Shown in pieces: positions 51,486 to 52,663 of a stretch of 64,000 nt of DNA (position 1 is its first letter; each line of letters begins with the position of its first letter). The notes below the pieces were generated by a model. That model worked only from the letters and a program-made list of their open reading frames with translations. It made no database searches and was not told the origin of the DNA. The DNA comes from Microbacterium sp. Bi121 (lineage in GTDB: Bacteria > Actinomycetota > Actinomycetes > Actinomycetales > Microbacteriaceae), in the NCBI RefSeq assembly GCF_918698005.1, contig NZ_CAKKLJ010000003.1, positions 124,001 to 188,000 on the forward strand, read 5' to 3'. The position numbers and the translations under genes were made by a program.

Positions 51486-51836
51486 TCAGACCGATCGCAG
51501 CAGCCCGGCAACGCTGTCGAGCGCGCCCGGCACCAGGCGGTAGTACGCCCAGGTACCGCGCTTCTCACGAGTGAGGTAGCCGGCATCCACCAGGATGCGC
51601 AGGTGGTGAGACACGGTCGACTGCTGGAGCCCGAGAGGTTCAGTGAGGTCGCAAACGCAGGCCTCGGCGTCGGCGTGTGCGGCGACCATCGACAGCAGTC
51701 GCAGCCGGGCCGGATCGGCCAGTGCCTTGATCGCGCCCGATAGGCGCGTGGCGTTCTCGACGGTGATCGGCGAGGTGGTGAGCGGCGAACAGCACGCCGC
51801 CACGTCGCGCACGGGAAGGAGGTCAGCCAAGGTCAC
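51486..51836 (-). CDS. ArsR family repressor, As(III)-type
   Basis: A 116-residue winged-helix repressor. C15 and C16 near the N-terminus plus C60/C62 in ACVCDL match the three-thiolate arsenite site known from Corynebacterium ArsR1, where Cys15, Cys16 and Cys55 bind As(III). The DNA-binding helix is LGLQQSTVSHHLRILVDAGYL. The start is a GTG. There is no arsenite permease or arsenate reductase gene nearby: the only divergent unit is the 15-codon minigene at 51925. Antimonite or another thiophilic metal is an alternative ligand. Confidence 0.87.
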   Translation of the reverse strand: MTLADLLPVRDVAACCSPLTTSPITVENATRLSGAIKALADPARLRLLSMVAAHADAEACVCDLTEPLGLQQSTVSHHLRILVDAGYLTREKRGTWAYYRLVPGALDSVAGLLRSV

Positions 51837-51886
51837 CAGGCCATCGTCTCACACGCATTGACAAACGTCGATGTATTGCCTCACCC

Positions 51887-51920
51887 TTAGATCGATGTTC
51901 ATCGATGAAGACGGGAGGTG
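51887..51920 (+). promoter_or_regulatory. ArsR operator and start signals of the Cys-rich minigene
   Basis: ATCGATG-TT-CATCGAT (51891-51906) is a perfect inverted repeat that abuts a -10-like TTAGAT (51887-51892). A further TCGATG lies at 51868. GGGAGGTG (51913-51920) is a strong Shine-Dalgarno. TTGACA at 51858-51863 is too far from TTAGAT to be its -35. Confidence 0.6.
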
Positions 51921-51924
51921 CGCC

Positions 51925-51972
51925 ATGTCCACGGAGGAGAACGAATGCTGCGGCGGAATTCCCTGCTGCTGA
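51925..51972 (+). CDS. 15-aa Cys-rich peptide minigene
   Basis: The frame encodes MSTEENECCGGIPCC and stops. Two Cys-Cys pairs (residues 8-9 and 14-15) are separated by GGIP. GGAGGT lies 6 nt before the ATG, the ArsR-type operator is 19 bp upstream of the start, and a hairpin begins 6 nt after the stop, so the whole unit fits in about 120 bp. If translated, the four thiols could chelate As(III) or another soft metal; the peptide would be a minimal metallothionein-like product. Alternatively it is a cysteine-sensing leader peptide. No homologue is known to me. Confidence 0.55.
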   Translation: MSTEENECCGGIPCC

Positions 51973-51978
51973 ACCTGT

Positions 51979-52008
51979 GCGGGCCCCCGCCTCGCGGTGG
52001 GGGCCCGC
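51979..52008 (+). terminator. Hairpin terminator after the minigene
   Basis: Arms GCGGGCCCCC (51979-51988) and GGGGGCCCGC (51999-52008) pair perfectly; the intervening CGC and GCG can extend the stem with one bulge. It follows the Cys-rich frame by 6 nt. The next gene has its own promoter-like element downstream. Confidence 0.7.
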
Positions 52009-52063
52009 ATGGAGTCGACGTCCAGTGGGTGACGAACGCGACGGTCGCCCGTAGGATCGAGGC

Positions 52064-52663
52064 GTGACCGGCGATGAAACCGAGAACGTTCCCGAACCGA
52101 CGACGGATGCCGCGGCAGCTGCGCCCGCGCCGGAAGCAGACCTGACGGCGAAGGCACCGCCTGCGCCACCTGTTCCCTCTGCGGTGGATCCCTACGCCGT
52201 CCCGGAGCCGGAGACGGTCGCGGTCCCCGACGCCGAAGCGGCCATCGAGGAATTCGAAGTGCCGCCGCCGCCGGCGTTCGAGTCGGCATCGCCGCCTCCG
52301 ATCCCGGAGCCCGTCATCCCGCCGTCATCGTCCGAGGACGCAGGATCGGATGCGGATGGCGCGCCTGCGCTGCGCAAGCGCCGCACCTGGGCACCGAACG
52401 ACACGTGGACCTCCGCGTCGTCCCACAAGCAGGAGGCCGTGCCGCCGACCGCTGCGCAGAAGGCTGAGATGCGCGCGGCTGCGTCACGCGCCGCGACGGC
52501 TCGCGACGAAGCGACTCGGAACTACGTCAGCCCCGCCGCAGGCGGGACCGATGGCGCCAGCTATCGCGGCTGGACCGTGGCGATCTACCTCGGGCTCGCG
52601 GTGCTGTTCTTCGGCGCCATCGGGTTCATGGTCGCCCTGGGTATCCCGGGCTCCGGCGGCTGA
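52064..52663 (+). CDS. Pro-rich protein with one C-terminal membrane helix
   Basis: A 199-residue protein not recognised. The first 100 residues are rich in Pro, Ala and Glu, with PAPPVP and VPPPPAF runs. A basic segment LRKRRTW follows near 105. A single helix (WTVAIYLGLAVLFFGAIGFMVALGI) lies at about 168-192. The N-terminus would be cytoplasmic and disordered, anchored by the C-terminal helix. The GTG lies 6 nt after TAGGAT (52052-52057), so it is probably leaderless. It could be a scaffold for SH3-like or cell-division partners; this is only a guess. Confidence 0.7.
   Translation: MTGDETENVPEPTTDAAAAAPAPEADLTAKAPPAPPVPSAVDPYAVPEPETVAVPDAEAAIEEFEVPPPPAFESASPPPIPEPVIPPSSSEDAGSDADGAPALRKRRTWAPNDTWTSASSHKQEAVPPTAAQKAEMRAAASRAATARDEATRNYVSPAAGGTDGASYRGWTVAIYLGLAVLFFGAIGFMVALGIPGSGG

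Follow-up and report, generated by a model that had tools for sequence, protein, structure and literature searches.

A minigene of 15 codons, divergent from an arsR gene in Microbacterium sp. Bi121, encodes a peptide with two Cys-Cys pairs, and short frames of the same kind recur beside related arsR genes in the Microbacteriaceae. We consider it probable that the minigene is translated and repressed by ArsR, and that its product, an acidic micropeptide with paired cysteines, binds trivalent arsenic and probably antimony as well. The structure of the gene, its recurrence at arsR loci, the selection on its amino acids and the arrangement of its neighbours are observations, made in a 64,000-nucleotide stretch of this genome (the window, by which we mean that whole stretch) and in surveys of related genomes.

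Organisation of the minigene and its ArsR

Reading of the region between arsR and the next forward-strand gene gave the following features.

51486-51836, reverse strand: arsR, encoding an ArsR/SmtB-family repressor with Cys15-Cys16 and Cys60-Val-Cys62
51857-51874, forward strand: operator-like element O1, ATTGACAAACGTCGATGT, identified from the sequence and including TTGACA at 51858-51863, the proposed -35 element
51882-51887, forward strand: proposed -10 element CACCCT, 18 nt past TTGACA, assigned by eye
51891-51906, forward strand: operator O2, ATCGATGTTCATCGAT, a perfect inverted repeat (ATCGATG-TT-CATCGAT) immediately 5' of the Shine-Dalgarno sequence
51913-51920, forward strand: Shine-Dalgarno sequence (SD), GGGAGGTG, by direct reading
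51925-51972, forward strand: the minigene, 15 codons and a stop, encoding MSTEENECCGGIPCC, by direct reading
51975-52012, forward strand: GC-rich, terminator-like hairpin 3' of the stop, from the predicted fold, without a U-tract

The minigene and arsR are divergent, and the minigene unit is complete from the TTGACA element through the hairpin. The inverted repeat, strong SD, 15-codon frame and GC-rich hairpin described in the original prediction are all present on direct reading, and within the window no ORF for a permease or a reductase is apparent close to the minigene, as had been claimed. That account of the locus stands, except that O1, a second operator-like element overlapping TTGACA, had been missed. 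The 60 nt 3' of the stop fold with a predicted energy of -40.6 kcal/mol (z -4.77), and the 183-nt stretch 51880-52062 has a folding z of -3.31; a consensus scan of the region recognised neither a promoter nor a T-tailed terminator. The next gene (52064-52663) lies on the same strand and starts 91 nt past the stop. Its product is rich in Pro and Ala with a hydrophobic segment at the C-terminus, and a search at 1e-8 in 38 further genomes of the genus gave no match to it.

The window's ArsR scores 90.8 bits against NCBIfam NF033788, for which the curated cut-off is 55, and the cysteine pattern attributed to it, Cys15-Cys16 with a CVC motif, is read directly in its sequence. At 1e-10 its sole solved relative is the Corynebacterium glutamicum ArsR (PDB 6j0e; E 1.3e-15), which belongs to the same family and has the Cys15-16 pair in the same position. 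The single further cysteine that this protein has in the aligned stretch is, however, out of alignment with the CVC of the window's ArsR, so that the likeness to Corynebacterium ArsR that had been drawn holds for the first pair and not beyond it. Among the matches listed, identity to the window's ArsR reaches 77% in other genera and 71% within the genus; this greater closeness to the ArsRs of other genera suggests that the gene may have been acquired by horizontal transfer.

Recurrence at ArsR loci

Loci were picked by ArsR alone, so that the presence of a peptide did not steer the choice. The family survey comprised the 90 best-ranked ArsR matches, the window's included, from 398 Microbacteriaceae genomes, in which about 65 more were listed; divergent sequence extended to 1.5 kb at 29 loci and up to 2.5-2.6 kb otherwise, limited in some cases by the contig end. 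A mechanical search of the divergent 2.5 kb of each ArsR locus for short ORFs with at least two Cys-Cys pairs gave, before filtering for an SD, a match at 39 of the 90 loci. Controls on the same 192,848 bases yielded no ORF on the reverse strand and one in the reversed sequence. An automatic match at L188 was set aside as spurious for want of an SD, as were, outside the family survey, matches at L248, L255 and L257. SD-preceded peptides of 9-27 residues with at least two Cys-Cys pairs are thus found at 38/90 of these best-ranked loci. Two further family loci (L118 and L132) have peptides with one pair; they are counted as peptide-free in the comparisons of partner genes below and as peptide-bearing in the tree.

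In the genus, 50 other matches were listed and 29 of them surveyed; 8 of these 29 further loci have an SD-preceded Cys-pair peptide. Loss of the frame from relatives that keep the operator had been named in the original prediction as counting against it; in the family and genus surveys the frame withstood this test, but most peptide-free loci of the family have the operator too. Outside the family, peptides were found at 3 of 58 ArsR loci (0/18 from the class search and 3/40 among loci hand-picked from other families). Of the 29 loci taken automatically from the class search, 11 belonged to the window's own family or genus and had no peptide; one locus had just 95 bases left. Among plasmids, none of eight ArsR loci, drawn from 138 records with a match, has a peptide, and a nucleotide search of plasmids with the intergenic region gave short matches only. 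We conclude that the peptide is common beside ArsRs of the window's type and rare elsewhere.

What recurs is the Cys-pair frame; the exact ending is rare. The strict pattern CCGGIPCC-stop was found in just two of 366 genus genomes, that of the window and G238, where the order is arsR, a divergent arsC-like gene, then an SD, MTETEPCCGGIPCC and a hairpin. The rarity of the peptide that this pattern taken alone had suggested was overturned by the ArsR-based survey. A looser pattern matched in 75 of the 398 family genomes, as did a reversed control pattern in many, and the matches were sorted by genomic context. A contig scan gave 41 loci, of which 11 were accepted as minigenes (L060, L061, L062, L067, L068, L074, L082, L088, L093, L094 and L096), six of them apparently identical to loci of the family pattern search; the remainder were longer proteins, low-complexity stretches or frames within other genes. 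Related minigenes occur in Amnibacterium, Naasia, Gulosibacter, Demequina, a Microbacteriaceae MAG, a Thermoleophilia MAG and other actinobacterial MAGs.

The peptides and selection on their frame

The 46 SD-preceded peptides (38 from the family and 8 from the genus loci) comprise 43 distinct sequences. All 46 have CC at the C-terminus, though the search did not demand this ending. Cysteine makes up 31% of their residues, and in total they contain 188 Asp and Glu, no Lys, three Arg and seven His. The smallest, MDECCEGCC and MDDCCEIGCC, have nine and ten residues and are thus shorter than the window's peptide, for which a place among the smallest chelators of its kind had been suggested; MADGCCGTDASCCEGCCENGCCETSCC has five Cys pairs. 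A search of NCBIfam and Pfam models at E up to 10 with eight longer members, short queries that give it little power, produced no match; its 20-residue minimum left the window's 15-mer outside.

The pattern of substitution was analysed in 24 of the 46 loci, arranged by hand in eight clusters of equal length, with the window's own peptide excluded. The pN/pS ratio is 0.24 in the proposed frame, compared with 2.49 and 1.45 in the shifted frames. Weighted differences at the three codon positions are 20, 22 and 67, placing 67 of about 110 at third positions. In the largest cluster, of seven peptides, the cysteines are invariant, and several residues other than cysteine are preserved through synonymous changes. 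The low ratio confined to one frame and the excess of third-position changes lead us to conclude that this frame is under purifying selection at the amino-acid level and is a peptide gene; the coding frame originally claimed is in this way borne out in the relatives of the window's minigene.

Operator elements and hairpin

A TTGAC element with a half-site is present at 34 of the 37 loci with the peptide as first gene, and an O2-like repeat at 36 of the 37. The same elements are found at 48/52 and 44/52, respectively, of the peptide-free family loci. Because most peptide-free loci share the layout, it is not specific to the peptide and appears to mark ArsR control, or this type of ArsR. It would place the peptide under ArsR in the way that it would arsC or ACR3 elsewhere. 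In 34 of the 46 cases the peptide frame is followed by a hairpin with z below -2.

At L074 (Naasia aerilata) no ArsR was found on the locus in the 8 kb searched, though its minigene has operator-like repeats, and the one listed ArsR match of the genome is about 1.7 Mb away; this locus was accordingly dropped as an example of a solitary arsR-peptide pair. L096 likewise combines operator-like repeats at the minigene with no ArsR found on 8 kb. Both minigenes are perhaps regulated in trans. At L088 an ArsR-like frame is present that tblastn at 1e-8 had missed.

Neighbouring genes

Of the 46 peptides, 26 precede an arsC-like gene and eight follow one; the remaining 12 lack such a gene within 1.6 kb. 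Such a gene lies within 1.6 kb at 29 of the 38 family peptide loci and at 41 of the 52 peptide-free ones (p 0.80). The arsC-like proteins score below the NCBIfam arsenate-reductase cut-offs, while the low-molecular-weight phosphatase fold of ArsC and the aquaporin reference pass Pfam cut-offs, and the references for ACR3, ArsA, ArsD and the arsenite methyltransferase pass curated ones. The reference oxidoreductase falls well under the ArsO cut-off; its assignment as ArsO was rejected, and it is referred to as an FAD-dependent, or pyridine-nucleotide, oxidoreductase.

With loci treated as independent, ACR3 lies within 1.6 kb at none of the 38 peptide units and at 17 of the 52 peptide-free loci (Fisher p 4.7e-5), and the FAD-dependent oxidoreductase at 0/38 and 21/52 (p 1.4e-6). 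The loci are, however, related by descent. On the ArsR tree the peptide label changes eight times, and there are two supported independent contrasts, or one when a row that is unreadable (N) across the frame, and was entered as lacking the peptide, is removed; no test is significant. Within one group (SH-aLRT 93, not starred), 39 of the 42 rows have the peptide; two of these 39 have one-pair peptides and were labelled by hand. The exclusion of ACR3 and the oxidoreductase by the peptide is therefore apparent and is confounded by descent. At the genus locus L194 peptide and oxidoreductase occur together.

Apart from two aquaporin units, no ACR3 or aquaporin, the exporter types covered by the search, was found within 1.6 kb in the 38 family peptide units. 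The order peptide-aquaporin-arsC is seen in L129 and L162, and also in L023, L024 and L026. ACR3 was the one exporter sought in 38 of the 43 carrier genomes from the family and genus surveys; a protein over the cut-off is present in six, the window's among them, and 32 have none over it. At E 1e-3, some ACR3 match is found in 12 of the 38. In the window's genome the true ACR3 belongs to a second ars region on another contig (L041, G000:C7:53000-70000), which also has a frame resembling an FAD-dependent oxidoreductase and one of 337 residues that starts with an ArsR-like domain.

The paired-cysteine ending in other proteins

Searching with the motif itself revealed that CCGGTGCC-stop ends the ArsD-type proteins of L042, L045 and L053, beside arsA, and close variants end those of L032, L043 and L054, with arsA following; the L042 protein passes the curated ArsD cut-offs. 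An arsenite methyltransferase of a Chloroflexi MAG (L098:4359-5201; 274.8 bits, cut-off 263) ends in GGGCCGGSGCC. Proteins of Salinicoccus cyprini (L079) and Staphylococcus equorum (L089), ArsDs by their look, end in NGGCCGGDGCC and NEGCCGGDGCC; at L044 an arsD gene has apparently decayed, its middle gone and its Cys-pair tail left. Two Streptomyces proteins of unknown family (L078 and L090) end in PTCCGDGPCC, with no ars gene seen beside the former. For R773 ArsD, passages of PMC4562236 and PMC12607644 describe metalloid binding by two pairs at the C-terminus, Cys112-113 and Cys119-120; the former article assigns the chaperone role to Cys12-13-18 and not to the tail.

Function of the peptide

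From these sequences we infer control by ArsR, induction, binding and sequestration of As(III), and an effect on resistance. As(III) would take ArsR off the operator elements, and derepression would give a short transcript that stops close to the hairpin. The peptide would then tie up intracellular As(III) through its vicinal cysteines, sparing the thiols of the cell, and might hand the metalloid on to an exit route. Its action would resemble that of a very small metallothionein controlled by a repressor of the ArsR/SmtB family, or that of an ArsD C-terminal tail separated from the rest of the protein. In most relatives its gene stands next to an arsC-like gene, where other units have ACR3 or the FAD-dependent oxidoreductase. 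Judged by sequence, the peptide may store As(III) or may pass it on. Four cysteines in a 15-mer offer little capacity, so buffering would need high expression.

A peptide whose main task is not to store As(III) but to carry it, from ArsC or from the cytosol, to a recipient such as an exporter, an aquaporin or ArsR, in the way that ArsD serves ArsA, would account for the CCGGxGCC-stop motif common to the peptides and the ArsD tails beside arsA, for the arsC-like gene near 29 of 38 family peptides and for the peptide-aquaporin-arsC units. We think this unlikely, since the two aquaporin units are the only ones of the 38 in which ACR3 or an aquaporin was found within 1.6 kb, 32 of 38 carrier genomes have no ACR3 over the cut-off, and the chaperone role of ArsD is placed, in the relevant passage of PMC4562236, at Cys12-13-18 and not in the tail that the peptide resembles. 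Less probable still is a polycysteine leader, in which ribosome movement over the Cys codons would sense the supply of cysteine and set downstream expression through the hairpin. Short Cys-rich frames followed by strong hairpins invite this reading, 26 of the 46 peptides precede arsC, and mycobacterial polycysteine attenuators are mentioned in a passage of PMC9094748, credited there to Canestrari 2020, which PMC9031893 also cites. In the window itself the same-strand gene 91 nt past the stop is compatible with it. For the family, a leader role is disfavoured because 20 of the 46 peptides follow arsC or have none nearby, and among these 20 the next gene, as called mechanically, lies on the other strand in 13; moreover, residues other than cysteine are held through synonymous changes, and the minigene frame has an SD, whereas the mycobacterial frames are termed leaderless.

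There is, finally, a very small chance, a little below that of a leader, that the peptide serves another soft metal (Cd, Zn, Cu or Hg) or as a general thiol buffer and is under ArsR incidentally. Cys-rich peptides bind many soft metals, and the third ligand of the window's ArsR is unlike that of C. glutamicum ArsR; on the other side stand the arsC-like gene near most family units and the paired-Cys ending, which ArsD and an arsenite methyltransferase also have. An ArsR-repressed micropeptide that binds As(III) remains the explanation we prefer.

Relation to known systems

Metallothionein modules of the smtB-smtA type, and MymT, also join an ArsR/SmtB-family repressor to a tiny Cys-rich metal-binding product. 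The minigene peptides are far shorter, at 9-27 residues, with vicinal CC pairs, a CC end and an arsenic setting with arsC. Phytochelatins are comparable in being short, acidic and rich in cysteine, and they bind As(III), as is proposed for the minigene peptide; the latter is, however, ribosomally encoded, and its cysteines are vicinal, not alternating. Like the C-terminal tail of ArsD, the peptide ends with two vicinal Cys pairs that have a few residues between them. It differs from ArsD in being free-standing, with its own SD and with neither the ArsD domain nor the Cys12-13-18 site, and no arsA lies beside it in the window. Mycobacterial polycysteine leader ORFs, as far as the passages cited above describe them, are likewise short Cys-rich frames of Actinobacteria, but the minigenes are SD-led, are often the last or only gene of their unit and show selection at the amino-acid level. 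No description of Cys-pair micropeptides adjacent to ArsR was found in open-licence PMC articles. A repressor-controlled small metal-binding product is thus known, and by this comparison the novelty would lie in the length and arsenic setting of the peptide, which is probably a regulated, metalloid-binding member of a family for which we found no name.

Implications

Operons of the ars type are described in terms of reduction and export. Here a conserved micropeptide stands beside ArsR in dozens of genomes and is as short as nine residues, below the length that most annotation considers. We tentatively propose, as a possibility somewhat short of even, that many Microbacteriaceae without ACR3 tolerate arsenic by reducing and sequestering it: ArsC would make As(III), and an ArsR-induced micropeptide of 9-27 residues with a Cys-Cys end would replace the pump. 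Such a peptide would be a genetically encoded counterpart of the phytochelatins of plants, overlooked by gene finders because it is so short. The peptides offer minimal As(III)-binding candidates for sensing or clean-up, and the family makes it testable whether cells that reduce arsenate can live without an ACR3 pump.
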